Source: Thiohalobacter sp. (GTDB taxonomy: Bacteria; Pseudomonadota; Gammaproteobacteria; DSM-19610). From it: a DNA stretch of 47,048 nt. Positions 25,775 to 46,773 of this stretch are shown here, piece after piece. The stretch spans positions 1-47,048 of the forward strand of contig JALSRZ010000114.1 of NCBI GenBank assembly GCA_026984515.1. Direction: 5' to 3'. Each line of letters opens with the position of its first letter. Within the stretch, counting starts at the first letter, position 1. The notes beneath the pieces were generated by a model. The model saw nothing but the letters and a program-made list of their open reading frames with translations. It had not been told where the DNA came from and did not search any database. Both the position numbers and the translations under genes were made by a program.

Positions 25775-26818
25775 CTATTTACTACCGAGCACTGTCCAGC
25801 CGGGTGTTGCCGGTAAACGCGGCAGCTTCTGTTCCGGGAATTCACCGGTCAGTCCGTTCAGGAAAGCCACGATGTCGGCCACCTGGGCGTCACTGAGCGT
25901 CTTGTTGAGCTGTACTTTCGCCATCACTTTCACGGCCTCGTCCAGGCTTGCCACCTGGCCGGCGTGGAAATACGGGGCGGTCAGCGCGATGTTGCGCAAG
26001 GTCGGCACCTTGAACAGGTGCAGGTCTTCTTTCTTGCCGGTTGCCTCGAAACGACCCTTGTCCTTCATCAGGTCATAACGCTGGACGTACTCGCTGTCTT
26101 CGAAGGTCGGGAACTTCATGAAGAAACCGGTCCCTGCCGCCATGGTCGGGCCGTTAAAGGCCGGTCCGGAGTGACAGCTGGTGCAACCGGTGTCGGCAAA
26201 GGTCTTCATACCTCGCTGCTGCTGTTCAGTCAGCGCCTTTTTATCCCCTTTTACAAACCGGTCATAGGGACTGTTGGGGGTAATCATGGTGCGTTCAAAG
26301 GCCGCAACCGCTTTGGCGGCGTTGTCCACCGTCATGGGGTTCTCGGTACCGAAGGCACGCTCAAAGTAAGGTTTGTAACCCGGTATCGCCCGTACGCGGT
26401 TCATGGCTTTTTCCAGGTCACTCATCCCCATCTCCACCGGGTTGGTCACCGGCCCCCGGGCCTGGTCTTCCAGGCTCGCGGCGCGGCCATCCCAGAACTG
26501 GGATGAGGAAAAGGCCGAATTCCAGACCGAGGGCGCGCTGCGGCCGCCGGTCTTGCCGTGCACACCCATGGAAACCGGGCGGTTGTCATCACCACCCAGC
26601 ATCAGGTTGTGGCACGAATTACAGGAAACCGTACCGGTCTGTGAAAAGCGCGGGTCCATGTACAGCAGCCGCCCCAGTTCGACTTTTTCCGCGCTGGTCG
26701 GGTTGTCCGCCGGGGCCGGGGCCTGCTCCGGCAGGGTCTGCCATTCATACGCGGTAGCGGTGTTTGTCGTCAACGCGAAAACAATAGACAATAAGGAGGT
26801 TCTCAGATACATAGTCAT
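25775..26818 (-). CDS. Di-heme cytochrome c peroxidase
   Basis: Periplasmic di-heme peroxidase of the CcpA/MauG family that reduces hydrogen peroxide with electrons from cytochrome c. The protein is 347 aa with a signal peptide cleaved near residue 23 (TATA-YEW). Heme sites are CNSCH (66-70) and CTSCH (212-216). ELGRLLYMDPRFSQTGTVS is the typical lead-in, and APSVWNSAFSSSQFWDGRA (about 95-113) is the family signature. A well-placed AAGGA precedes the ATG. The upstream region has a Fur-family-like palindrome. Another gene of unknown function diverges from it. Confidence 0.93.
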   Translation of the reverse strand: MTMYLRTSLLSIVFALTTNTATAYEWQTLPEQAPAPADNPTSAEKVELGRLLYMDPRFSQTGTVSCNSCHNLMLGGDDNRPVSMGVHGKTGGRSAPSVWNSAFSSSQFWDGRAASLEDQARGPVTNPVEMGMSDLEKAMNRVRAIPGYKPYFERAFGTENPMTVDNAAKAVAAFERTMITPNSPYDRFVKGDKKALTEQQQRGMKTFADTGCTSCHSGPAFNGPTMAAGTGFFMKFPTFEDSEYVQRYDLMKDKGRFEATGKKEDLHLFKVPTLRNIALTAPYFHAGQVASLDEAVKVMAKVQLNKTLSDAQVADIVAFLNGLTGEFPEQKLPRLPATPGWTVLGSK

Positions 26819-26921: not shown

Positions 26922-27488
26922 ATGACCACCCTGCCCGACAAAGACGAACAGATTATCGAAGCCCACACCGGACTGATACACCGCGTGGTCATTGGCTGCC
27001 AGAATCGCGGTATGGTACCCGACCTGGACGACATCCTGAAACAGGCCGAACAGAACGGCTGGCTGCAGCTGGTGGGCGCGATTCGGAAGATACTGGCGGG
27101 AACGCGCAACGACACGGTACTCAGCGGCCTGGACGACGAGGACCGGGTCATCGTGCAGTCTATCCTGCGCGGCCTGCAAAACCCGGAGACCCTGCCTGAC
27201 CTCGGTGCCGGCGCAGACGGCGCCATGGCCGCCCCGGGTATTGCTGCCATGATCAACGGCGCTCGCTCCGGCAACCTCGAAACCCTGCAATTACTGGGCA
27301 CCATGGCCCAGCAGATGCTGAAGGCCGGTGGCGACATGGCCCGCCTTGCCGGCATTATACGCCCGCTGGTACAGGGTGAGCGCGATGCTGACAAGCTGAC
27401 CGAGGGCATGACGGAAGAGGGCGAAAAACTGGTCCTCGCCATCCTCAGGGAGCTGGCAGAACTGGATGCGGTCAGGACCAGCCACTAA
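26922..27488 (+). CDS. Protein of unknown function
   Basis: A 188-aa soluble, mainly helical, acidic protein without signal peptide, membrane helix or recognised catalytic motif. Residues 1-75 (DEQIIEAHTGLIHRVVIGCQNR, ILKQAEQNGWLQLVGAIRKILAG) look like paired helices. A Gly/Ala-rich middle (GAGADGAMAAPGIAAMINGAR) precedes a second helical part with GNLETLQLLGTMAQQMLKAGGDMARLAGIIRPLVQGE. I do not recognise the family. It shares a divergent promoter region with the cytochrome c peroxidase and is followed by a CBS-GGDEF gene on the same strand, with about 97 bases between its stop and the likely GTG start. Confidence 0.75.
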   Translation: MTTLPDKDEQIIEAHTGLIHRVVIGCQNRGMVPDLDDILKQAEQNGWLQLVGAIRKILAGTRNDTVLSGLDDEDRVIVQSILRGLQNPETLPDLGAGADGAMAAPGIAAMINGARSGNLETLQLLGTMAQQMLKAGGDMARLAGIIRPLVQGERDADKLTEGMTEEGEKLVLAILRELAELDAVRTSH

Positions 27489-27585
27489 CCTGCATTATTG
27501 CGACGAATTCACGAAATTTTCCCTGACAACTGCCGTTAAGGCATACACACCGACGTATTCATTGTCCAATAGCCAGGGAATCCAG

Positions 27586-28560
27586 GTGAAAGAAATATCC
27601 GTAAGCGATCTGATGACTCGCGACATCGAACTGATGGCGCCCGACACACCCCTGCATGAAGTCATCACGCGCATGCAGCACAACCGGTACTCCTGCACCC
27701 TGATCGGCAGCCACGGCAGCCCGGAAGGGATTATCACCGAACGTGACCTGGTACAGATCCTGATGAAACTGGTGGATGACCCGGATCTCGCCGGGCAGCC
27801 CGCCGCTGCATTCATGTCGACACCGCCTCATACGGTGCAACAGGAACAGTCCCTGTTCGATGCACTGGTGATCTCCCGTGCCGAACATGTTCGCCACCTG
27901 CCGGTGGTGGATAACAACCAGCAGCTGGTCGGCCTGCTGACCCAGACCGACCTGACCCGGGCCCATTTCCGGGTGACCGAAATGCAGCAGGTCATCATTG
28001 AGCGCGCCATAAAAACCCGTACGGAAGAACTGCTCAATGCCAACCGCGAACTGGAATCACTGTGCATGGAAGATGCACTGCTCGGTATCGGCAACCGACG
28101 CTCAATGGAAGTGGACATGCAGCATACCCATTCACTGGCCGACCGTTACCAGCGGCCCTATACCGTGGCGTTACTGGATATCGATTACTTTAAACGCTAT
28201 AACGATCACTATGGCCACCAGGCCGGCGACCGGGCGTTGCAGCAGGTAACAGAGACGATCAATTCCGCCATTCGCTCATCCGATCGCCTGTACCGCTACG
28301 GTGGCGAAGAGCTGTTGCTGCTGCTGCCTGATACTGTTGCCGAAGGTGGCGCCAACCTGTGCCGACGCCTGGTTCGCGAGCTGTTCGATGCCGCGATCCC
28401 GCATTGCAAGAGCCCGTACGACGTCATCACCGTCAGCGCAGGACTGGTGGATAACCGGCAGCCGGCACCGGGCGCAGGCCAGGACTGGCAGGCAGTGGTG
28501 CACCGTGCCGACCAGGCACTCTACCAGGCGAAACACCGCGGCCGCAACCGCGTTGCCTGA
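27586..28560 (+). CDS. Diguanylate cyclase with two CBS domains
   Basis: A cytoplasmic 324-aa protein: CBS pair (about 1-125) then GGDEF domain (about 160-324). The CBS part has SVSDLMTRDIELMAPDTPL and HLPVVDNNQQLVGLLTQTDL, which usually bind adenine nucleotides. The active-site loop is GGEEL (239-243) with Tyr before it; the family usually has F or L last, so activity is likely. The inhibitory I-site RSSD (230-233) is five residues upstream, so feedback inhibition by c-di-GMP is expected. The GTG at 27586 is preferred because conservation starts at VKEISVSDLM; an open frame begins earlier at 27466 and would overlap the preceding gene. Confidence 0.9.
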   Translation: MKEISVSDLMTRDIELMAPDTPLHEVITRMQHNRYSCTLIGSHGSPEGIITERDLVQILMKLVDDPDLAGQPAAAFMSTPPHTVQQEQSLFDALVISRAEHVRHLPVVDNNQQLVGLLTQTDLTRAHFRVTEMQQVIIERAIKTRTEELLNANRELESLCMEDALLGIGNRRSMEVDMQHTHSLADRYQRPYTVALLDIDYFKRYNDHYGHQAGDRALQQVTETINSAIRSSDRLYRYGGEELLLLLPDTVAEGGANLCRRLVRELFDAAIPHCKSPYDVITVSAGLVDNRQPAPGAGQDWQAVVHRADQALYQAKHRGRNRVA

Positions 28561-30560: not shown

Positions 30561-32342
30561 TCAGGCCGGGTTGTCTACATTGCGCTGCAACCAGAATTCC
30601 AGTGCCGCCAGGTGCCACAGCTTGCTGCCTTTCAGGCGGGTCAGCTGGTGTTCGGGATCGTCGAGGATGAGCTGCACATAGCTTCTCCTGTACAGACCGC
30701 GTTCCCGACAGGCCTGTGAGTTGAGCAGGTCACGCATGAACTCCAGGAACTGCCCCTGCACAAACTTCAGGGCCGGCACCGGGAAGTAGGCCTTGGGCCG
30801 GTCGATGACCGCATCCGGTACCAGGCCGCGTGCCAGTTGCTTGAGCGGGTACTTGCCATGTTCGCGCAGCTTCAGCTGTGACGGCATGCGCATAGCCAGC
30901 TCCACCAGTTCATGGTCGAGGAACGGTACACGTGCCTCCAGGCCCCACGCCATGGTCATGTTGTCCACCCGCTTTACCGGGTCATCCACGATCAACGTGG
31001 TGACATCGAAATGCAGCACGCGGTTCAGGTAGTCATCACTGGCTACTGACTGCAGGCGTTCTGCAACCAGCGCGCTGGTATAGTCCTGCCCCGCGCAGGC
31101 CGGTGTCACCATGCGCAGGTACTCGTCGTGGTCCCGGTCAAAATAAAACCGGCGGAAACGTTCCAGGTCACTGCCGCCGGCCTGTTGCATTTGCGGATAC
31201 CAGAAGTATCCGGCAAACACCTCGTCCGCACCCTGCCCGCTCTGCACCACCTTGACGTGCTGCGATACCCGTTCGGACAGCAGAAAGAAGGCGATGGCAT
31301 CCTGCCCTGCCATGGGTTCCGCCATGTGATCGATGGCTTCCGGCAGACGCTCCAGCACTTCGTGGTTGGGAATATGTATTTTATGGTGCTGCGTTCCGTA
31401 GCGTGCCACGACCTGGTCGGAAAACTCGAATTCATCACCCTGCTCGTGCGGGTGGTCTTCAAACCCGACCGAGAAGGTCAACAGATCGTTACCACCGTGT
31501 TCGGCCAGCAGCGCCACCAGCAGGCTGCTGTCCAGCCCACCGGACAACAGCACCCCCACCGGCACATCGGCTATCAGGCGGCGACGGCGTACCGCGTTCA
31601 CCAGCGCTGTGCGTGTCGCTTCCAGCCAGTCCTCTTCACGCATCCCCGGGTCAGGCGGTGCAGCGTCCAGCTGCCAGTATGGAAAGCTGCGTTCGCTGCC
31701 GTCAGCGCCCAACACCAGTACATGAGCCGGGGACAGCTTGCGCACCCCCTTCAGCAGGGTGCGCGGCGCGGGAACCACCGCGTGCAGCGTGAAATGATGG
31801 TGCAGGGCTACCGGATCGATCGCGGTATCCACGTTGCCCGCGGCCAGCAGCGCCTGGGTGCTGGAAGCAAAGCGGAAACGCTGGTGATCGTGGCTGTAGT
31901 ACAGAGGCTTGACGCCAAAACGGTCGCGCACCAGAAGTAACTGTTGCTGCCGGCTGTCCCAGATTGCAAGTGCGAACATGCCGTGCAGCCGTGTGGCAAA
32001 CGATTCGCCCCAGGCGGCATAGGCCTTGAGCACCACCTCGGTGTCGCCCTCACTGCTGAAACTGAACCCCTTGTCGATCAGCTCACTGCGCAGTTCCCGG
32101 TAGTTGTAGATCGCCCCGTTGAATACCAGTACCAGGCCGCGTTCGGCATCCACCCAGGGCTGGTTGGAAGCATCGGACAGGTCGATCACCGACAGGCGCC
32201 GGTGACCAAAAGCCACCCTGCTGTCGACATAGCGGCCCTCGTGATCCGGACCACGGCGCTCCAGCCGTTTCAGCATGCGTCCCAACGCCGCCCGGTCGGG
32301 TGGACCGGCGTCCAGTTTCAATTCACCACAGATTCCACACAT
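30561..32342 (-). CDS. asnO: Asparagine synthase-like amidotransferase, N-acetylglutaminylglutamine amide (NAGGN) type
   Basis: Class II glutamine amidotransferase, 593 aa from the ATG at 32342. Cys2 (MCGICGEL) is the nucleophile, RRGPDHEG follows, FNGAIYNY binds the product, and SGGLDSS (267-273) is the ATP-pyrophosphatase loop. VPAPRTLLKGVRKL, FEDHPHEQGDEFEFSDQV and VVQSGQGADEVFAGYFWYP fit, from memory, the subfamily that amidates N-acetylglutaminylglutamine to the osmolyte NAGGN. The partner dipeptide synthetase normally lies next to it but is not in this window. If the subfamily is right, the product would help in salt stress, matching the NhaD neighbour. A general asparagine synthetase role is the alternative. 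Confidence 0.83.
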   Translation of the reverse strand: MCGICGELKLDAGPPDRAALGRMLKRLERRGPDHEGRYVDSRVAFGHRRLSVIDLSDASNQPWVDAERGLVLVFNGAIYNYRELRSELIDKGFSFSSEGDTEVVLKAYAAWGESFATRLHGMFALAIWDSRQQQLLLVRDRFGVKPLYYSHDHQRFRFASSTQALLAAGNVDTAIDPVALHHHFTLHAVVPAPRTLLKGVRKLSPAHVLVLGADGSERSFPYWQLDAAPPDPGMREEDWLEATRTALVNAVRRRRLIADVPVGVLLSGGLDSSLLVALLAEHGGNDLLTFSVGFEDHPHEQGDEFEFSDQVVARYGTQHHKIHIPNHEVLERLPEAIDHMAEPMAGQDAIAFFLLSERVSQHVKVVQSGQGADEVFAGYFWYPQMQQAGGSDLERFRRFYFDRDHDEYLRMVTPACAGQDYTSALVAERLQSVASDDYLNRVLHFDVTTLIVDDPVKRVDNMTMAWGLEARVPFLDHELVELAMRMPSQLKLREHGKYPLKQLARGLVPDAVIDRPKAYFPVPALKFVQGQFLEFMRDLLNSQACRERGLYRRSYVQLILDDPEHQLTRLKGSKLWHLAALEFWLQRNVDNPA

Positions 32343-32445
32343 GTTGTTCTCTTGTCCGCAACAGTTTCCTTGTACGGCAGGACGCACCGGTGTACGGACA
32401 GTATTCCGGTTACTGTTCCGGTGGTCCTCTCGGCCTGAACGGGAA

Positions 32446-32515: not shown

Positions 32516-34129
32516 TCAGTTTTCGGATACTTCGGCGGTGGAAGGGCTCACCAGCGTCAGCGACCCGCGACGCGGCCCCGCCAGCGCGGATTCCAGGCAG
32601 CTGAGGTGCCGGACGACCTGGTTACGTCCGTTGGACTTGGCCTCGTACAATGCCTTGTCGGCGGCCCGCATCAGCTGGCTCAGGGAGCCAGCGCCGGACG
32701 CGCCACGACAGCAACTGATCCCGATGCTCACCGTGATCGGAATTTCCATGCCACGGTAATTGGCCGGTGAACGAGCCACCAGCTCGCGCAGCTTGCCGGC
32801 CAGTGCAAAACTCGACCCGGTGTCCTCTGCCACATTCAGGATCAGGAATTCCTCGCCACCAATCCGGAACAGGTAATCACTGGCCCGTGAGTTATGCTTG
32901 AGCAGCCGGGAAAAATGCACCAGCACTGCGTCACCGCCCGGATGGCCGTGGCAGTCATTGATGGCCTTGAAGTAATCCAGGTCCAGGAGAATGGCCGTCA
33001 GGTAACAGCGGTCGCGCACCACCCGGGCAAACAGCCCCGGCGCCACTTCCTGCAGGTAGCGCCGGTTATACAAGCCCGTCAGACTGTCTGTGATCGCGGT
33101 TTCCTGGAGCTTGCGATGCGCGCGCCGGACACGCGTCTGCTCGCGCCGCAGTGCATCGAGCACATCGGCAAAACGGTTTACCAGCTGGTCCATTTCGGTC
33201 CTGGACTCGGAGCGATTCATCACCGGAAGCCTGCCCTGCACCATCTCTTCAGTGATACGCATCAGTTGACTGAACGGCTTGCTGAAATTACGCACCATCA
33301 GCCAGCCCACCAGCAACACCGCCAGCGCGCCGAGCACCGAAAATGTGTAGACCCAGCGCTGGTAATGGTCCAGCAGGTTGACCAGTACTGATTCGGAGAT
33401 ACCGAGCCACAGGCGTGGCACTTCCGGATCGACCTTGCCGAGCGCCACCTGGCGCAGCTGGAAAGACTGGCCCCGCCCTTCCAGCACGCCCGAACGGGTA
33501 TCGATCGGCATTCCCTGGTAACGTGCGTTACTGCTCCACAGGATGGAACCGTCTTTTTCAAACAGCAGCAGGTAATCACTGACCGGGTTTTCCTGCAAAC
33601 CCAGCCACTGCGGACCCAGTGTCCTGGTCACTACCGTGGTGGCCAGCCGCTGGCCCTCGTACACAACCGGCGCCATCACGACCATCACCACACCTTGCGG
33701 TGAACTGAAGTAAAAATAGTCATCGCGGGACGACGCAAGGTGACGGCGCGCCTGCTCTGCAAGCTGCGGGTGCTGCCCGCCCAGCAGCACCTCGCCGCGG
33801 TCAGACAGGATCAGGCAGGCATCATGCGGCAGCGAGCTGAACTGTCGTTCAACATAAGGGACCAGGCTTTCCCGGCTGGTACCGAGTTCGAGAATAATAT
33901 ACAGGTATTCCTGCAGGCGCTGATCGTCCGCGATGATCGTGGCGTAGCCCTGCAGCTCATGACGTTCCGCGCGCACATCCTGTTCCCTGCGCTGCACGGC
34001 GTAGCGCAGGCGTTCTTCTGCTCCTTCCACGACGACATCCCTTGCCGCCTTGAACGACAGGGTCATCATCCCTATAAGTAAAACGATCAGCATCCCTACA
34101 TAAAGCAGCAACCGCGATCTGTAGGTCAT
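32516..34129 (-). CDS. Membrane diguanylate cyclase with periplasmic sensor and HAMP domain
   Basis: A 537-aa c-di-GMP synthase. Membrane helix 1 is near 6-25, then a periplasmic sensor of about 230 residues that could be Cache-like. Helix 2 (VLGALAVLLVGWLMV) is near 263-280, then HAMP, a short coiled coil (RREQTRVRRAHRKLQE) and the GGDEF domain. The active site is GGEEF (424-428) with I-site RASD (415-418), so it should be active and product-inhibited. Its ATG overlaps the stop of the PstS-like gene (ATGA), implying coupled translation and probably a shared signal: the periplasmic protein may present ligand to the sensor. Confidence 0.92.
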   Translation of the reverse strand: MTYRSRLLLYVGMLIVLLIGMMTLSFKAARDVVVEGAEERLRYAVQRREQDVRAERHELQGYATIIADDQRLQEYLYIILELGTSRESLVPYVERQFSSLPHDACLILSDRGEVLLGGQHPQLAEQARRHLASSRDDYFYFSSPQGVVMVVMAPVVYEGQRLATTVVTRTLGPQWLGLQENPVSDYLLLFEKDGSILWSSNARYQGMPIDTRSGVLEGRGQSFQLRQVALGKVDPEVPRLWLGISESVLVNLLDHYQRWVYTFSVLGALAVLLVGWLMVRNFSKPFSQLMRITEEMVQGRLPVMNRSESRTEMDQLVNRFADVLDALRREQTRVRRAHRKLQETAITDSLTGLYNRRYLQEVAPGLFARVVRDRCYLTAILLDLDYFKAINDCHGHPGGDAVLVHFSRLLKHNSRASDYLFRIGGEEFLILNVAEDTGSSFALAGKLRELVARSPANYRGMEIPITVSIGISCCRGASGAGSLSQLMRAADKALYEAKSNGRNQVVRHLSCLESALAGPRRGSLTLVSPSTAEVSEN

Positions 34130-35004
34130 TGCATACGGGTTTCGGAGGATTCCAGTTGCAGGAGGTTATAACGTTCGGCTACGGCCTTGAATGCCGGCCC
34201 GGTCTGCACTTCGTGAATAATTTTCAGTACGTCCTCACCAGGCGTCCGGTTGGTCACCGCGGACAGGTTACGGAAAAACGGGTAGTGCTTGCTGCGCAGG
34301 TTCTCTGCCGTGGGCCGGTAGCCGTCGATACGCAGCACCTTGAGTTTGCTGTCTGCCCCGAAATCCCAGGTCGAACCGATATGGCCCAGCGCGGAACTGA
34401 AATCACTGACACGTTGCACCATGTCCGCGGCACTGCTCACGTTGAGGCGTTTCTGGCGAAATTCGGCGGCATCGGGAAGGATGGTTTTCCAGTGTCCCGG
34501 CCGTTTCTTGCAGTGCAGCCGTGTCACCAGGACGATTGGCTGGTCATTGCCGCCCACTTCTTTCCAGTTGACGATATCCCCGCGCATGATGCCACGCACC
34601 TGTTCCACCGTTAGATCGGACACCGGGTTGGCCCGGTTGACGACGATGAGCACCGGTTCCAGCGCCAGCGGATACACCAGCAGCTTTTTACTGTCCACTT
34701 CCTCCTGGCTGAGCGGGCAACAGACAAAACCGAAGGTCTCGTGCCCGGGTTCGTTCAGCATGGCGGTCCGGATACCGGCGTTACAGCCCATACCCAGGGT
34801 GGAATTGCGGCCGTGCAGTTCAATGGAACGGCCCGAGACTTTTTCCAGGTCCGCTTTCAGTGAATCGAATATCACCCACGCAAAATGCGCACCGGCACCG
34901 GTGATGATGGTGTCCGTATCCGCAGTGGCACGTCCGGCGGCAGAAGTCAGTAGCAGGGCAGCCGCGCAGATGTGCAGCAACGAAAGCAGCTTTATCTTCT
35001 TCAT
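34126..35004 (-). CDS. PstS-like periplasmic substrate-binding protein
   Basis: A 292-aa secreted protein with a clear signal peptide (MKKIKLLSLLHICAAALLLTSAAGRATA). ITGAGAHFAWVIFDSL and IELHGRNSTLGMGCNAGIR resemble the phosphate-binding P-loops of PstS, but the usual TGSGAG/GS-rich pattern is altered. LALEPVLIVVNRANPVSDLTVEQVRGIMRGDIVNW is the conserved PBP-like block. It is not next to permease genes but overlaps a diguanylate cyclase by four bases, so a sensory rather than transport role is likely. The ATG at 35004 is chosen for the signal peptide. Ligand could be phosphate or another oxyanion. Confidence 0.87.
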   Translation of the reverse strand: MKKIKLLSLLHICAAALLLTSAAGRATADTDTIITGAGAHFAWVIFDSLKADLEKVSGRSIELHGRNSTLGMGCNAGIRTAMLNEPGHETFGFVCCPLSQEEVDSKKLLVYPLALEPVLIVVNRANPVSDLTVEQVRGIMRGDIVNWKEVGGNDQPIVLVTRLHCKKRPGHWKTILPDAAEFRQKRLNVSSAADMVQRVSDFSSALGHIGSTWDFGADSKLKVLRIDGYRPTAENLRSKHYPFFRNLSAVTNRTPGEDVLKIIHEVQTGPAFKAVAERYNLLQLESSETRMQ

Positions 35005-39765: not shown

Positions 39766-40470
39766 CTACTCTTCGGACTGCTGATCCACCCGGGTGTGGC
39801 GAACGTCCTTGCCCTTGACCAGGTAGATCACGTATTCACAGATATTGGTGGCGCGGTCACCGATGCGCTCTATGGCCCGGGCGGCAAACATGGCCTGCAG
39901 GATGCTCGGAATGGAACGCGGGTCTTCCATCATGTAGGTCATCAGCTCGCGCATCAGCGAATCGTACTCGCTGTCCACGCGGCGGTCCTCGCTCCAGATC
40001 TCAACCGCCTTGTCCGTATCCAGGTGCGCAAAGGCATCCAGCGCCCCGTGCACCATGCCGCGCACGTGCTGGCCGAGGTTGTGTATCTGGGTAAACAGGC
40101 GCGCCGCGTGCTCCTGGCCCGCCAGGCGGCTGGCCATGCGCGCGATGCGCTCGGCCTCGTCACCGATGCGTTCCAGGTCAGTGATGGTTTTTATGACCGC
40201 AACGATCAGGCGCAGATCACTGGCGGCGGGCTGACGCCGGGCCAGCACATTGTTGCACTCTTCGTCGATTGAGACCTCCATGGCATTCACCTGGTAGTCA
40301 TTCTCGATGATCGCGGTTGCGATGGCTGCATCTCTTTTTTCCAGCGACTCCATGGCTCCCTGGATCTGCTGCTCGACCAGACCACCCATGGCCAGCACGC
40401 GGTTGCGTATATCTTCCAGTTCCTCGTTATACCGCCTGGAAATATGTTGCCCGATATTCAGGTTTTCCAT
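39766..40470 (-). CDS. phoU: Phosphate signalling regulator PhoU
   Basis: Negative regulator linking the Pst transporter to the PhoR-PhoB system. The 234-aa protein is a double three-helix bundle with the metal-binding repeats ERIGDEAERIARM (about 105-117) and ERIGDRATNICEYVIYLVKG near the C-terminus. It is the last gene of pstC-pstA-pstB-phoU, 22 bases after pstB. Loss of PhoU usually makes the Pho regulon constitutive. Confidence 0.96.
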   Translation of the reverse strand: MENLNIGQHISRRYNEELEDIRNRVLAMGGLVEQQIQGAMESLEKRDAAIATAIIENDYQVNAMEVSIDEECNNVLARRQPAASDLRLIVAVIKTITDLERIGDEAERIARMASRLAGQEHAARLFTQIHNLGQHVRGMVHGALDAFAHLDTDKAVEIWSEDRRVDSEYDSLMRELMTYMMEDPRSIPSILQAMFAARAIERIGDRATNICEYVIYLVKGKDVRHTRVDQQSEE

Positions 40471-40492
40471 CTGCAGACTCCCTGGTAGTCCT

Positions 40493-41317
40493 TTAGCCGT
40501 AACGACCGGTTATGTAGTCTTCCGTCATTTTCTCTGACGGGTTGGTGAAAATCTTGTTGGTCGAATCATGCTCTATCATCCTGCCCATGTACATGAACGC
40601 CGTGTAATCCGACACGCGCGCAGCCTGCTGCATATTATGGGTTACGATCACGATCGTATACTTTTCCTTCAGTTCATCGATCAGTTCCTCGATCTTGAGT
40701 GTCGATATCGGGTCCAGCGCGGAAGCAGGTTCATCCAGCAGCAGCACTTCGGGTTCAACGGCGATGGCACGTGCGATCACCAGGCGCTGTTGCTGCCCAC
40801 CCGACATACCCAGCGCATTCTGGTGCAGGCGTGACTTGACCTCGTCCCACAGGGCTGCGCCGCGCAAGGCTTTTTCAACCACTTCGTCCAGGGTACGACG
40901 ACTCTTTATGCCCTGCAGACGCAAGCCGTAGGCAACATTCTCGTAAATACTCTTGGGGAACGGGTTGGGCTTCTGGAACACCATGCCCACCCGCTGGCGC
41001 AAACGGGCCACCTGCACTGCGGGTGCGTATATATTCTCTCCGTCCAGCCGGATACTGCCCTCGATACGCACACTGTCGACCAGGTCGTTCATGCGATTGA
41101 AACAGCGCAACAGGGTGGATTTTCCGCAACCACTGGGGCCGATAAAGGCCGACACCCGCCGACGCGGGATACGCAGGTTGATGTTGTCCAGCGCCTGCGC
41201 CTCTCCGTAGTACAGATTGAGATCGCTGACTTCAAGACAGATGTCCTGTGCACCGGCATCGTCTGCGCGCACCCGGTCTTCAGGTATCCCGGCATCGATA
41301 CGCCGTATATTTTCCAT
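40493..41317 (-). CDS. pstB: Phosphate ABC transporter ATPase PstB
   Basis: ATP-binding subunit of the high-affinity phosphate importer. Walker A is GPSGCGKST, the signature [16 protein letters not shown], Walker [14 protein letters not shown], and the switch His lies in [14 protein letters not shown]. The C-terminal [13 protein letters not shown] is diagnostic for PstB. An ATG at 41323 is also in frame; 41317 is preferred because GGAG sits seven bases before it. pstA ends about 20 bases upstream. Confidence 0.97.
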
Positions 41318-41340
41318 GTTCATACTCCGCTAAACAGGCC

Positions 41341-43008
41341 TTACTGCTCCAGTGAGCGGTAACGCTCACGCAGACGGTTGCGAATGGCAATCGCCGCCAG
41401 GTTGAGCAGCACGATCACGACCACCAGCAGCAGGGCCGTGGCAAAAACCAGCGGCCGTGCCGCCTCGACATTGGGGCTCTGGAAGCCGACATCGTAGATG
41501 TGAAAACCCAGGTGCATGAACTTGCGGTCCAGGTGGATAAAGGGTGCATTACCGTCCACTGGTAACGCCGGCGCCAGTTTCACCACGCCCACCAGCATCA
41601 GCGGTGCAACCTCACCCGCAGCGCGCGCCACCGCCAGGATCACACCGGTCATCATGGCCGGGCTGGCCATGGGCAGCACCGTGCGCCACAGGGTCTCCGC
41701 CCGGGTGGCGCCCAGCGCCAGGCTGCCTTCGCGAATAGAGGCCGGTATCCGCGACAGGCCTTCCTCGGTCGCGACGATGACCACGGGCACCGTCAACAGC
41801 GCCAGCGTCAGGGATGCCCACAGCAGCCCCGGGGTACCGAAGGTCGGTGCCGGCAGGGCTTCCGGAAAGAACAGCCGGTCGATACTCCCGCCCAGGAAAT
41901 ACACAAAAAACCCCAGTCCGAACACCCCGTACACAATGGACGGTACCCCCGCCAGGTTGTTCACGGCGATGCGTATCAGGCGGGTGAGCGGACCCTGCTT
42001 CGCATATTCGCGCAGGTACACGGCAGCGACGACACCAAAGGGGGTCACCAGTACCGACATCAGCAGCACCATCATGACCGTGCCGAAAATAGCCGGAAAG
42101 ATCCCGCCCTCGGTGTTGGCCTCGCGCGGGTCCGCGCTGACAAACTCCCACAACTTGGCCAGGTAGAAAGCCAGCTTGTCGGTCAGTTGCATGGCGTTGG
42201 GTTGATAGGCGCGCACAATACCCGCCAGCGGAATATCAACCTTGCGCCCTCCCATCACCGTCATGGTGACCGTATCGCGCCGCAGCTTGCGGTACAGCTC
42301 GTCCAGGTTCTGATGCAGTCCGCTGAACTTCGCCTGCAGGGTTTTGCGCTGCTGCCCGATTTTCGCCAGCGCTTCGGGCGTATCTTCACCCTCCAGCTCC
42401 AGCTTGCGTTTTTGCAGGCGCAACCGTTCGATGCGGTAGTTGATCGATCCGATCTCGCCTTTTTCCAGCCGGCGTATCCTGGCCCGCAGTTTCTCCACGT
42501 ACTCCAGTCCCTGCTGCAGTTCCTGCCAGGCGGCCTCACCCTGCGCGACCTGCTTGCCGTTGCGCTGCAGGGACTGGATGAAACCGTAAAAGTCGCCCCA
42601 TTCGAGGCGTTCCAGCACCACCAATGGCTGAGGCAGGGAGCGTGCTTCGATATCGTCCGCCAGGATCCAGCGGAAATCCAGGCCGGAAGTATCCCGGTTG
42701 GCGGTCTTCAGCAGATAACGCTCAACCGTACCCTCGACATTTTCAGCGATGGTTTCCCCGGCGTCGCGCAGGTGTTCGACACTGACCTGTTCCTTCTCGC
42801 GGATCTGGCCGAGCAACTGCTGTAGCTCTCCATCGGGCGCACGGTACTGCAATTCCCACACGGGTGACGGCCAGAAATGGCCCAGCCCGTTGATCGCGAT
42901 CAACAGCAACAGGCCCAGCACCATGGTGAGACTGGCTGCCACCGCGGCGGCGGTAAGCCATATCCAGGGGGCACCGCTGTTTGCCCAGTATCTGAAGGTG
43001 ATGGTCAT
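41341..43008 (-). CDS. pstA: Phosphate ABC transporter permease PstA (long form)
   Basis: Permease subunit of 555 aa, far longer than the roughly 300-residue E. coli PstA. After the first membrane helix (about 17-38) a periplasmic insertion of about 240 residues contains a predicted coiled coil (EKLRARIRRLEKGEIGSINY and LRLQKRKLELEGEDTPEALA, about 170-220). The transporter core follows, with AIFGTVMMVLLMSVLVTPFGVVAAVYL and the ATPase-contact loop EGSLALGATRAETLWRTVLP. Long forms exist in pseudomonads and related bacteria. pstC ends nine bases upstream. Confidence 0.94.
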   Translation of the reverse strand: MTITFRYWANSGAPWIWLTAAAVAASLTMVLGLLLLIAINGLGHFWPSPVWELQYRAPDGELQQLLGQIREKEQVSVEHLRDAGETIAENVEGTVERYLLKTANRDTSGLDFRWILADDIEARSLPQPLVVLERLEWGDFYGFIQSLQRNGKQVAQGEAAWQELQQGLEYVEKLRARIRRLEKGEIGSINYRIERLRLQKRKLELEGEDTPEALAKIGQQRKTLQAKFSGLHQNLDELYRKLRRDTVTMTVMGGRKVDIPLAGIVRAYQPNAMQLTDKLAFYLAKLWEFVSADPREANTEGGIFPAIFGTVMMVLLMSVLVTPFGVVAAVYLREYAKQGPLTRLIRIAVNNLAGVPSIVYGVFGLGFFVYFLGGSIDRLFFPEALPAPTFGTPGLLWASLTLALLTVPVVIVATEEGLSRIPASIREGSLALGATRAETLWRTVLPMASPAMMTGVILAVARAAGEVAPLMLVGVVKLAPALPVDGNAPFIHLDRKFMHLGFHIYDVGFQSPNVEAARPLVFATALLLVVVIVLLNLAAIAIRNRLRERYRSLEQ

Positions 43009-43017
43009 GGCTCAGCC

Positions 43018-45267
43018 TTAAAGACTACTGTACTTTTCACGCAGGCGCTGCCGGACGATTTCAGCACCGGTATTGAACACAAAAGTAAAGACAAACAGCA
43101 CCAGGGCGGCCAGGAACAGCACCCGGTAGTGGGTACTGCCCACCTCCGACTCCGGCATTTCCACGGCGATGTTGGCCGACAGGGTCCGCATGCCTTCAAA
43201 GATATTCATATCCATTACCGGTGTATTACCGGTTGCCATCAGAACGATCATGGTCTCCCCGACGGCACGCCCCACTCCCATCATGATGCCGGAGAAAATG
43301 CCCGGGCTGGCCGTCAGCAGGACGACCCGGACCAGCGACTGCCAGGGTGTGGCACCCAGCGCCAGCGAACCATAGGTCAGGTATTTCGGTACACTGAATA
43401 TCGCGTCCTCGGCGATGGAAAAAATGGTCGGAATCACGGCGAAGCCCATCGCCATACCGACCACCAGTGAATTGCGCTGATCGAAACCGATCCCCATCTC
43501 GTGCTGCAGCCAACCCGGCATGTCTCCGCCGAACAACCACTGCTCCAGCAGCGGGCTGAGACCCAGGGACAGGGCGCCGGCACCGACCACCACCGGCACC
43601 AGCAGGGCGGCCTCCCAGCCATCGGGCACAAAGCGGCGCAGCGCCACCGGCAGGCAACTCCACAGGAACGCTACCAGCAGGACCAGCAGCGGCATCAGCA
43701 ACAACAGGGCAAACACCCCCGGCAGGTGTGTCTCCACCAGCGGGGCCAGCCACAGGCCGGCCAGGAACCCCAGGATGACCGTCGGCAGGGCCTCCATGAT
43801 TTCGATCGTGGGCTTGACCAGCTGGCGCATTTTCGGCGCCATGAAATAGGCCGTGAACACCGCACCCATGATGGACAGGGGTATGGCGAACAGCATGGCA
43901 TAGAAGGCCGCTTTAAGGGTGCCGAAGGTCAGGGGGGTGAGACTGAACTTGGGCTCGAAATCATTACTCGATGCCGAGGACTGCCAGATGTACTCCGGGT
44001 GATCGTAGCCTTCGTACCAGACTTTCGACCACAGCGAACTCCAGGACAGCTCCGGGTATTCGTTGCGGATGTACCAGAAGTGCAGTTGGCCGTCATCATC
44101 CAGCGCCCACAGGGCATTGGCGCGTGGTGCAATCGCCATCTGCACGATGGCGGAATCCGCAACCTTCTGCTGCAGGAGTTGCGTGTGGGCCGTCGCGTGG
44201 TAGGCGGTGATATCACCCTGGCGGTTACCGGCATAGAATCCCTTGCGGCTGTATTCAGCGACCAGCGAACGCAATTCGCCGCTGGTATCGAAGCTGCGGA
44301 TCTTTTCCAGGTGACGCCCGCCCTCCTCGTTGCGCACCGAGAACCACTGGTTGATTACGCCATCGTCACCGGCCACCATGATGGATGCCCCGCCGGCCAG
44401 CAGCGTGGCTGCCCGCACCTTGACACCCGGCGCGGTAATACTCAGCTGCTCCACCAGGCGGGGCTGTGAAAGATCGGTGACGTTGAACCAGGCCAGCTTG
44501 CCGGCACGACTGATCACATAAAGATCGCTCTGCACCGGGTCGACCAGCAGTGCCCGTATGTCCTGCAGGTCCGTATTGCCGCTGCTGCGCTCGAACGCGA
44601 AAGTTGACTCGTCCTCAAGCAGAGACTCCTCCGGTGTGGCGCGCACCACGGACAGCATGCCGTTCTTGCTCCAGCCCACCAGGGTGAACACCCCTTCCTC
44701 CTCCTGCACCGCTATCCTGGCCAGGGCGGAATGTTCACTGGCGACATCGACCAGGGCGGTACCCAGCGGGTAATCAAGTTGCGGGGTAATGACACGCCGG
44801 TCATCCGGGTAGGTCACCTTGTAGTGCTGCCGAACCACCAGCGCCTGGCCGTTACTCAGCCCCAGCGCCACGACGCCGGAAGCCGGTCGCGCCGCCGAAA
44901 AACTGACGACCTGGACACCCTTCGGAACCGGTAACCACAGCTGCCTGACCAGCGCGCCATCACGGGTGGAAATGAATCGTACCGTCCCGTCGCGCGCAAA
45001 CACCGCGCCCATTTCAGCCTGTTCCTCGATCGCCAGGTGGAGGACCGGCGCATCGGCCGGAACCGCGTACACCGCACTCTCATTCATCTCCGGCGTCTCG
45101 CCCAGGGGCGCCACCACGTAAACAAGGTATATAAATATCAACAGGATAGAAAGGATTACCGAGATACCGCCGGCTGCTACCATGTAACGGGCCAAACGGT
45201 CCTTCAGCAGCCGCAGCCGCAGGTGTGCGCCGTGTTTTCCGTAAGCAAGTGCAGCAGGCTCTGACAT
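43018..45267 (-). CDS. pstC: Phosphate ABC transporter permease PstC (long form)
   Basis: Permease of 749 aa, more than twice the size of E. coli PstC. Membrane helix 1 (about 28-50) is followed by a periplasmic domain of about 360 residues with repeated beta-propeller-like strands (for example DGTVRFISTRDGALVRQLWL, AGDDGVINQWFSV). The permease core then has TLKAAFYAMLFAIPLSIMGAVFTAYFM and the ATPase-contact loop SLALGATPWQSLVRVVL. The start is drawn at 45267 (MSEPAALAY); 45276 is also in frame but would lie too close to the Pho promoter -10. It heads pstC-pstA-pstB-phoU. Confidence 0.92.
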   Translation of the reverse strand: MSEPAALAYGKHGAHLRLRLLKDRLARYMVAAGGISVILSILLIFIYLVYVVAPLGETPEMNESAVYAVPADAPVLHLAIEEQAEMGAVFARDGTVRFISTRDGALVRQLWLPVPKGVQVVSFSAARPASGVVALGLSNGQALVVRQHYKVTYPDDRRVITPQLDYPLGTALVDVASEHSALARIAVQEEEGVFTLVGWSKNGMLSVVRATPEESLLEDESTFAFERSSGNTDLQDIRALLVDPVQSDLYVISRAGKLAWFNVTDLSQPRLVEQLSITAPGVKVRAATLLAGGASIMVAGDDGVINQWFSVRNEEGGRHLEKIRSFDTSGELRSLVAEYSRKGFYAGNRQGDITAYHATAHTQLLQQKVADSAIVQMAIAPRANALWALDDDGQLHFWYIRNEYPELSWSSLWSKVWYEGYDHPEYIWQSSASSNDFEPKFSLTPLTFGTLKAAFYAMLFAIPLSIMGAVFTAYFMAPKMRQLVKPTIEIMEALPTVILGFLAGLWLAPLVETHLPGVFALLLLMPLLVLLVAFLWSCLPVALRRFVPDGWEAALLVPVVVGAGALSLGLSPLLEQWLFGGDMPGWLQHEMGIGFDQRNSLVVGMAMGFAVIPTIFSIAEDAIFSVPKYLTYGSLALGATPWQSLVRVVLLTASPGIFSGIMMGVGRAVGETMIVLMATGNTPVMDMNIFEGMRTLSANIAVEMPESEVGSTHYRVLFLAALVLFVFTFVFNTGAEIVRQRLREKYSSL

Positions 45268-45276
45268 ATCCAGCAT

Positions 45277-45310
45277 ATCGTACCCGGCCAATATGACGTT
45301 TGTGTGACAA
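45277..45310 (-). promoter_or_regulatory. Pho box and -10 for pstC operon
   Basis: On the minus strand TTGTCAC-ACAA-ACGTCAT (45293-45310) matches the two-half PhoB site, and a TACGAT -10 (45277-45282) follows after exactly ten bases, the spacing of PhoB-activated promoters. The predicted start of transcription falls within a few bases of the ATG at 45267, so the message may be almost leaderless. Confidence 0.6.
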
Positions 45311-45316
45311 CCGGCC

Positions 45317-45335
45317 CGGCGCGTTTTTCGCGCCG
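45317..45335. repeat. Perfect 7-5-7 palindrome upstream of sigma-54 promoter
   Basis: CGGCGCG, five T residues, CGCGCCG lies between the pstC Pho box and the sigma-54 element. It could be an operator or a small terminator-like hairpin; the T tract is in the loop, so a terminator is unlikely. Confidence 0.55.
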
Positions 45336-45336
45336 C

Positions 45337-45352
45337 TGGCACTGAACTTGCT
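45337..45352 (+). promoter_or_regulatory. Sigma-54 promoter for the PilZ gene
   Basis: TGGCACTGAACTTGCT has the invariant GG (45338-45339) and GC (45350-45351) with ten bases between, and matches the TGGCAC-N5-TTGCT consensus fully. It points to the PilZ gene at 45408, giving a leader of about 45 bases that includes the ribosome-binding site. Confidence 0.75.
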
Positions 45353-45407
45353 TGAGTAGGGTCAACCAACAACCGCACCCAAACCACGTGCCAGAGAGGA
45401 AATGCCA

Positions 45408-45725
45408 ATGGGCGTTGAACACCGATGGAGTTCTCGTAAAGAGATCAATATAGACGTAAACCTGTACTACCCACCGGTCGGTATGATTAACGGCAAGACC
45501 CGCAATGTGAGTCTCGAGGGTATGTATGTCGATGTAGAAGGGGTTCGTATACCGACCCAGGCGAGGCTGGAAATCTGCTTTACCGCAGACGTGCGCGGCA
45601 AACCGGTCGAGCACCGCCTGCCCGCCTACGTGGTACACGGCAACGATGGCGGCATTGGCCTGATGTTACAGCATGTCGGCTACCGGGAATTCGATGCCCT
45701 GCGTTACATGCTGAATGCCGCCTGA
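45408..45725 (+). CDS. PilZ domain protein (c-di-GMP receptor)
   Basis: A single-domain 105-aa PilZ protein. The c-di-GMP motif RxxxR is R6-W-S-S-R10, and the second motif is NVSLEG (33-38), matching [D/N]xSxxG. The rest (LEICFTADVRGKPVEHRL, AYVVHGNDGGIGLMLQHV) fits the beta barrel. The ATG at 45408 is preferred over 45402 because GAGAGGA (45394-45400) has seven-base spacing to it. It lies opposite to, and between, pstS and pstC and has its own sigma-54 promoter, so its output is probably controlled separately from phosphate uptake. Confidence 0.9.
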   Translation: MGVEHRWSSRKEINIDVNLYYPPVGMINGKTRNVSLEGMYVDVEGVRIPTQARLEICFTADVRGKPVEHRLPAYVVHGNDGGIGLMLQHVGYREFDALRYMLNAA

Positions 45726-45746
45726 GCAGCAGTTTCCGCCCGGCAC

Positions 45747-45770
45747 AAAAACCCCCGCACCAGGCGGGGG
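45747..45770 (-). terminator. Rho-independent terminator of pstS
   Basis: CCCCCGC (45752-45758) pairs with GCGGGGG (45764-45770); on the minus strand the stem is followed by five U residues. It separates pstS from downstream pstC and also faces the convergent PilZ gene end. Confidence 0.85.
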
Positions 45771-45795
45771 TCGCATCCAGCTTGCAGTGGCAGGC

Positions 45796-46773
45796 TTACT
45801 GCAGCCTGGCCAGTTCCTTGTCCGCCACCTTCAAGGGCAGGGGGATATAGCCGTCCTTGACCACGGTCATCTGGCCGGACTTCGACAACACCATCTTCAG
45901 GAACTCGCGTTCCAGCGGCGGCAACGGTTTGTTGGGTTGCTTGTTGACGTAGATATACAGAAAGCGGGCCAGCGGATAATGGCCACTGATGGCGTTGTCC
46001 GGGGTAGCGGCAACAAAAGGTTTACCCGCCTCTTTCGCCAGGGGAACCGTTCGCACACCCGAGGTTTTGTAACCGATCCCGGAATAACCGATACCGTTGA
46101 GTGAGGCGGACACCGACTGCACCACCGACGCGGAACCGGGCTGCTCATTTACATTATTCCTGTAATCGCCCTTGCACAACGCCTTTTTCTTGAAATACCC
46201 GTAGGTACCGGAAACCGAGTTGCGGCCGTAAAGCTGAATGGAACGCGTTTTCCAGGCGCCTTCCAGGCCCAGCGCGCCCCAGGTATTGATCGCATCCGGG
46301 TAGCCGCACTTGCGGGTCGAGGAAAATACCGCGTCCACCTGCGGAATGGTCATGCCCTTGATCGGGTTGTCCTTGTGTACGAATACCGCCAGCGCATCAA
46401 TGGCGACACGGATGCGTGTCGGCTTGTAACCGTAACGACGTTCGAAGGCCTCTATTTCCTTGTCTTTCATCTTGCGGCTCATCGGCCCCAGGTTGGAAGT
46501 ACCTTCGGTCAACGCAGGCGGCGCCGTCGAGGAACCGGCAGCCTGTATCTGGATATTCACGTTGGGGTAGTTGCGCTTGAACTCTTCCGCCCACAGGGTC
46601 ATCAGGTTGGCCAGGGTATCCGATCCCACACTGGACAGGTTACCGGATACACCGCTGGCGCGGCTGTAGTCGGCGAGGCCGGCATCTACTTTCGAATCCG
46701 CCATAGCGTGACCGCTCAGCACCAGGGTAAAAGACAGGGCGCCTGCCAGCAGGCCGGGTATACAGGGTTTCAT
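45796..46773 (-). CDS. pstS: Phosphate-binding periplasmic protein PstS
   Basis: High-affinity periplasmic phosphate receptor, 325 aa, with signal peptide ending near residue 25 (SGHAMA-DS). [19 protein letters not shown] and [27 protein letters not shown] form the phosphate loops, and [18 protein letters not shown] is the third. [10 protein letters not shown] and [14 protein letters not shown] are conserved. A GAGGAG sequence precedes the ATG. The rest of the transporter is transcribed separately because a terminator and the PilZ gene intervene. This permits a higher level of binding protein than of permease. Confidence 0.96.

Follow-up and report, generated by a model that had tools for sequence, protein, structure and literature searches.

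A PstS-fold periplasmic protein with a Cys/His site in place of the phosphate site, encoded with a membrane diguanylate cyclase, is a candidate co-receptor for c-di-GMP signalling

The Vibrio receptor for AI-2 is LuxP-LuxQ, in which LuxQ binds the periplasmic binding protein LuxP. In the polyamine co-receptor NspS-MbaA of Vibrio cholerae it is a binding protein that hands the signal on to the receptor (PMC8967002), and the activation of receptors, c-di-GMP enzymes included, by loaded solute-binding proteins is widespread (PMC9602780). The inputs of most c-di-GMP receptors are unknown. At the locus described here the input would be a separate soluble protein with a highly conserved and unusual site, which could be purified and screened so that the signal might be found directly.

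The locus lies in a window of 47,048 nucleotides, the whole stretch of DNA that was analysed, from a Thiohalobacter sp. of hydrothermal-vent type, and its features are collected in Table 1. Binding-protein and cyclase genes are both read from the minus strand, the stop of the former and the start of the latter falling within a common ATGA, and this -4 overlap recurs in relatives (L032, L033, L034 and L035-L038). No permease gene adjoins the pair. The view taken in a preliminary description of this DNA, that of a PstS-like periplasmic protein coupled to a membrane diguanylate cyclase and lacking a permease, is confirmed by the overlap, by the PBP_like_2 and GGDEF matches and by the genes beside the pair. 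A terminator and promoter scan and an Rfam search of the locus gave nothing useful. About 4 kb from the pair there is a second GGDEF gene (364 aa, 27466-28560, plus strand), and an N-acetylglutaminylglutamine amidotransferase gene (30561-32387, minus strand; TIGR03104, 928.8 bits) adjoins a glutaredoxin-like gene.

Table 1. Positions, in the window, of the gene pair, of its sites and domains and of the pst cluster.
Feature	Position	Strand	Basis or remark
PstS-fold periplasmic binding-protein gene	34126..35004	-	ORF, 292 aa; PF12849 54.6 bits; AlphaFold model
Predicted Sec signal peptide, ~residues 1-32 (...GRATA-D)	34909..35004	-	Sequence reading; residues 1-28 are a low-confidence segment of the model
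His40 codon (GAGAHF; PstS Thr10 position)	34885..34887	-	Invariant in 25 orthologues
Cys74 codon (GMGCNAG; PstS Ser38 position)	34783..34785	-	Invariant in 25 class-1 and 13 class-2 proteins
Cys95-Cys96 codons (FVCCPL; PstS Asp56-Ala57 positions)	34717..34722	-	Invariant in 25 class-1 and 13 class-2 proteins
RLHCKKRPGHW motif, residues 162-172	34489..34521	-	Replaces the R-x-x-G-S-G-T phosphate loop; R162 = PstS Arg135
ATGA stop/start overlap (translational coupling)	34126..34129	-	ORF coordinates; same -4 overlap in relatives
Membrane diguanylate cyclase gene	32516..34129	-	ORF, 537 aa; GGDEF 127.2 bits
Periplasmic sensor domain of the cyclase, ~residues 30-255, dCache-like	33365..34042	-	Model pLDDT 82.4; Foldseek
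HAMP-like linker, residues 277-328	33146..33301	-	Sub-threshold here; matched in the aligned sensor family
GGDEF domain	32618..33097	-	Pfam match
I-site RASD and active-site GGEEF (RASDYLFRIGGEEF)	32846..32887	-	RxxD-x5-GG[DE]EF
pstS-pstC-pstA-pstB-phoU, complete cluster	39766-46773	-	~5-12 kb from the pair, same window

The binding protein has a sole Pfam match at E<=1, to PBP_like_2 (PF12849; 54.6 bits against a cut-off of 27). Among solved structures its AlphaFold model (pLDDT 84.5) is closest to 4gd5 (VIA Z 24.6, rmsd 2.7, 237 residues; Foldseek 1.2e-19), a phosphate-bound PstS-like protein, and by this match it has the two-lobed PstS fold. With the PstS family of NCBIfam (TIGR02136) it reaches 80.3 bits, under the cut-off of 206.6. 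Linkage to pstCAB is likewise absent, the pst cluster of the window being separate and having a PstS of its own that scores 274.7 bits with the same profile and keeps the S-G-T loop. For this reason, and given that no permease gene lies alongside, a second pst-like transporter employing the binding protein was rejected. The PstC (796 aa) and PstA (555 aa) of the cluster are unusually long.

The phosphate-binding residues of E. coli PstS are well established, and they were mapped by alignment from the E. coli sequence, which matched 1ixh end to end in the PDB set. Thr10 corresponds to His40, Ser38 to Cys74 and Asp56 to Cys95, with Cys96 alongside at the position of Ala57. In the phosphate loop Arg135 is kept as Arg162, Asp137 becomes His164, Gly138 becomes Cys165, and Ser139-Gly140-Thr141 is replaced by Lys166-Lys167-Arg168. 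All the phosphate-ligand side chains checked are changed but those of Arg135 and Phe11; within the set Thr10, Ser38, Asp56, Arg135 and Ser139-Gly140-Thr141, Arg135 alone is kept. An HMMER alignment to 4gd5 gave an identical register. His40, Cys74, Cys95, Cys96, Arg162, His164, Cys165, Lys166, Arg168 and His171 are invariant in 25 orthologues (class 1), among which Lys167 varies, and Cys74, Cys95, Cys96, Arg162, His164, Cys165 and Arg168 remain so when the 13 proteins of a distant subfamily (class 2, see below) are added (n=38).

This rebuilt site bears directly on the ligand. A protein that senses phosphate or a related oxyanion, and so tunes c-di-GMP to the phosphate supply, would be in keeping with the PstS fold and with a nearest solved structure that is phosphate-bound, as well as with the retained Arg162, the extra Lys/Arg of the loop and the pstSCAB-phoU genes nearby. 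Also, phoU or pst genes lie close to the pair in some relatives, and AioX, a related periplasmic fold, senses arsenic oxyanions (PMC5908839). Since in this lineage the pair is about 5 kb from phoU/pst, a phosphate-related role is conceivable. However, Thr10, Ser38, Asp56, Ser139, Gly140 and Thr141 are all replaced, the family score is far from that of the pst-linked protein with its S-G-T loop, and in most other clades the pair sits in neighbourhoods without a recurring pst gene. We therefore hold phosphate to be an unlikely ligand on the sequence, and c-di-GMP control by phosphate supply to be very improbable. Phosphate or another oxyanion had been the ligand offered in the preliminary description; with invariant Cys, His and Lys/Arg now at the ligand positions and a genuine PstSCAB-PhoU in the genome this proposal was not supported, and phosphate was dropped as the leading idea on the residue mapping and the family score. 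The binding protein did not fall into the PhnD-like family of AioX-type arsenic sensors either, PF12849 alone being matched (Pfam, E<=1).

The cyclase matches GGDEF (PF00990) at 127.2 bits. Its GGEEF active site (32846-32860) and the RASD I-site (32876-32887) stand at the canonical spacing, five residues apart, and RxxD-x5-GG[DE]EF is present in every relative with a contig that reaches the motif; an intact GGEEF and an I-site had been noted before, and on sequence the protein qualifies as a diguanylate cyclase. The HAMP domain also claimed at that time stood in part, since the window protein itself scores 16.5 bits, under the Pfam cut-off of 25, but 12 of the 19 aligned sensor regions match (best E 1.7e-9). 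In the model of the periplasmic region a dCache-like domain lies between two long helices, TM1 and one that spans TM2 and HAMP. Foldseek placed the sensor domain near the dCache domains of chemoreceptors (E ~1e-6, TM 0.39-0.43 to the query), DctB and LuxQ (3c30), the likeness of the model to LuxQ being weak and at the level of the fold only. No Pfam domain is above cut-off in the sensor domain and no Cache match is seen in the window protein, weak Cache matches being confined to single relatives.

Within the GTDB family the binding protein has orthologues in eight genomes, the window's own included, and the cyclase is adjacent in all eight. The genome-wide scan turned up 25 orthologous loci, all of them from gammaproteobacterial or proteobacterial MAGs, several of which bear the names Thiohalobacter, Thiogranum, Chromatiales or Ectothiorhodospiraceae. 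A GGDEF gene follows downstream on the same strand in every one. In 18 (type A) it shares its sensor region with the window cyclase, the contigs of L034 and L041 stopping just inside the GGDEF domain, and in the remaining seven it encodes another membrane GGDEF protein with a different sensor region (type B), in which EAL is present in the five whose contig is long enough. Between binding protein and type-B receptor a YgaP-like transmembrane gene is found at L043 (1821-2114, PF11127) and L047 (1997-2308). A survey of 369 genomes of the class added 12 loci, ten of them with GGDEF. At L099 (G318) a 607-aa histidine kinase (HisKA/HATPase) is fused to the same type-A sensor domain (310 bits), and L107 has no obvious partner and decayed motifs (His40 lost, PGHW changed to PGNW). 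With the 25 scan loci, the 12 survey loci, the window and G004 taken together there are 39 orthologous loci, and in 38 a receptor gene lies downstream, for a histidine kinase in one and for a GGDEF protein in 37; the loci are related by descent and are not independent events.

What is independent in this evidence is the occurrence of the pair in several neighbourhoods that are not related to one another, with two types of receptor and with a single exchange of output. The neighbours of the pair differ between clades and are mostly housekeeping genes; in class 1 they are those for hydantoinase and NAGGN synthase, the hemA-prfA-prmC-moeB/gat group or htpG, and the receptor gene alone is constant. 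These conserved class-1 neighbours track clade synteny and hold no hint of a ligand. Since GGDEF matches number only 35 in the 3.37 Mb of the window's own genome, the cyclase being one of them, a receptor behind the binding protein in nearly all loci and in different neighbourhoods goes beyond chance. Lack of pairing in relatives had been named beforehand as the finding that would count against a two-part sensor, and in this survey the pairing held.

The reciprocal search, with a profile of the type-A sensor in the 369 genomes, found it in 18 places, in 15 of which the binding protein is adjacent. At two of the exceptions (G016:C55 and G354:C7) the cyclase occupies its usual syntenic locus and the binding-protein gene is missing; the third (G000:C59:52108; L144, 5509-7113) is another type-A cyclase of the genome to which the window belongs, also without a binding-protein gene and beside a 642-aa GGDEF protein with a type-B-like start. 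In G004 (L025, G004:C1, 9044-9544) the binding protein has lost about 80 residues internally and the coupled cyclase is intact, a natural loss, the genome being complete. The cyclase does not strictly need the binding protein, and because it can be kept without its partner the claim for the pairing is limited and regulation of either sign would be conceivable. These three places and the truncated protein of G004, together with the direct binding of ligands that is frequent in dCache-like domains, would also suit a binding protein that acts as a scavenger or scaffold in an accessory role and is co-transcribed with a cyclase that senses on its own and does not dock it. We regard this as decidedly unlikely in view of the near-universal two-way pairing, the exchange of output, the several neighbourhoods and the recurrence of the linkage in two subfamilies, both distant, where the sensor domains are others. 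The coupling of a binding-protein gene to that of a c-di-GMP enzyme in the membrane, with no permease and with conservation in relatives, is the arrangement of a co-receptor of the NspS-MbaA type. Conservation of the pairing, the reciprocal search and the swap of output behind one sensor domain strongly support the two-part sensor put forward in the preliminary description.

A wider search extended the Cys/His signature beyond the orthologues. In class 2, with 13 proteins of ~330-355 aa, the gene immediately downstream encodes a receptor (GGDEF, GGDEF-EAL or histidine kinase) in 10 loci (L112, L113, L031, L118, L120, L122, L126; L115, L116, L137), and in L114, L119 and L123 it does not. At L114 (3421-5687) CHASE2-like and adenylate-cyclase-like ORFs come after the Cys/His binding protein, possibly one interrupted gene and a further type of output. 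Class 3, from other Pseudomonadota, shows CC and RPHC..RP, the latter the counterpart of RLHCKKRPGHW, in all four members, each with a receptor immediately downstream; by sequence reading, not Pfam, two of these are GGDEF-EAL proteins, one is a hybrid histidine kinase and one has GAF with no recognised output in the ORF. Among 14 sampled PstS-like loci without the signature, an adjacent GGDEF was found in one (L121), and L134 has a response regulator. The receptors of classes 2 and 3, set against this single GGDEF in 14, indicate that the Cys/His signature tracks signalling and not transport.

That an exported protein has an invariant Cys/His site suggests, at the level of sequence, that the ligand is a soft metal or involves thiol chemistry. 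For the metal, Cu(I) is a guess. Just upstream of the binding protein in the class-2 loci L114 (7004-7492) and L115 (4734-5234) there is a gene for a small, membrane-anchored Cys/Met protein with no Pfam name, the homologues of which lie elsewhere beside genes for SCO1 (PF02630), PCu(A)C (PF04314) or NosL (PF05573). This protein likely handles copper, and in this way the class-2 context points weakly to copper, the hint being present in two of 13 class-2 loci and in none of class 1. Searches with the SCO1 and PCu(A)C profiles found no copper genes near class 1. In the window a MauG/MbnH-like di-heme protein is encoded at 25775-26818 on the minus strand; at 216.6 against 362.85 bits for MbnH it falls under the curated cut-offs, and it was rejected as a copper link on this score and for its distance of 7 kb.

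The main rival dispenses with a diffusible ligand altogether. Disulfides of the invariant cysteines would follow the redox state of the periplasm and control the cyclase as HmsC controls HmsD. HmsC, which is periplasmic and has several Cys pairs, regulates HmsD in a redox-dependent manner (PMC8846402), four invariant Cys occur here in an exported protein, and MAGs from vents or resembling sulfur oxidisers make up most of the relatives. Against this, His40, His164, Lys166, Arg168, His171 and Arg162 are invariant too, which describes a composite binding site and not cysteines alone, and the PstS fold is otherwise kept. Such a mechanism is in our judgement rather unlikely.

We favour a co-receptor, with a probability of about 0.68, in which the binding protein senses a soft metal or a thiol/redox signal, docks on the dCache-like domain and sets c-di-GMP. 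After export of the binding protein to the periplasm, a ligand would bind or react in the cleft of the PstS fold, at the Cys/His/Lys/Arg site that takes the place of the phosphate site. The loaded or modified protein would then dock on the dCache-like periplasmic domain of the cyclase, a step that we infer by analogy with NspS-MbaA and LuxP-LuxQ; as the sensor region differs in the type-B partner, the docking would have to suit two receptor types. The change would travel via TM2 and HAMP to the GGDEF dimer and alter its output of c-di-GMP, the biofilm signal. As to the ligand, a soft metal ion (with Cu(I) as the leading guess) or else a thiol/redox signal would be most likely, ahead of phosphate. 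More tentatively, and at somewhat less than even odds, the PstS-fold family with the invariant Cys4/His/Lys/Arg site may be a widespread and undescribed sensor of soft metal (perhaps Cu(I)) or of thiol/redox state, serving only as a detachable sensor that plugs into GGDEF, GGDEF-EAL and histidine-kinase receptors through dedicated periplasmic domains.

If this is a metal or redox sensor, it would let the metal or redox state of the periplasm bear on whether sulfur-oxidising and vent bacteria form a biofilm, and it would exemplify the conversion of a phosphate-binding fold into a different chemical sensor. As a caution, the name 'phosphate ABC transporter substrate-binding protein' need not mean that a protein binds phosphate. 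No Cys/His PstS-like sensor or PstS-diguanylate cyclase pair was found described in the literature searched, most subscription papers lying outside its scope. A binding protein that feeds a c-di-GMP receptor is of a known kind, and its unusual pocket appears to be undescribed in that literature.

Compared with PstS (TIGR02136; 4gd5; E. coli PstS 1ixh), the binding protein shares the fold and the Arg of the phosphate loop, and differs in its replaced phosphate ligands, in a score below the family cut-off, in having no transporter genes attached and in its linkage to signalling receptors. As in LuxP-LuxQ, a periplasmic binding protein goes with a periplasmic domain of the tandem-PAS/dCache type, LuxQ (3c30) being among the Foldseek matches; LuxP, however, is a binding protein of the sugar-binding type and the output there is a kinase, whereas here it is mostly GGDEF. 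AioX, ArxX and ArrX (PMC5908839) are likewise periplasmic binding proteins repurposed as the first component of signalling, but they are PhnD-like and work with histidine kinases in arsenic clusters, in contrast to PF12849, mostly c-di-GMP receptors and no arsenic cluster seen here. With HmsC-HmsD, and YfiR-YfiN, the pair has in common a periplasmic protein with Cys residues as the regulator, here putative, of a diguanylate cyclase in the membrane (PMC8846402), although HmsC is a different protein, PBP_like_2 being the only Pfam match here. Like NspS-MbaA, the candidate pair encodes a periplasmic binding protein together with a c-di-GMP enzyme of the membrane, and a dedicated permease is lacking. 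NspS is a polyamine binder of the PotD type, unlike the PstS-type fold with a Cys/His site and PF12849 as its only Pfam match, and MbaA is a GGDEF-EAL protein, whereas the window cyclase has GGDEF only and its type-B relatives have both.
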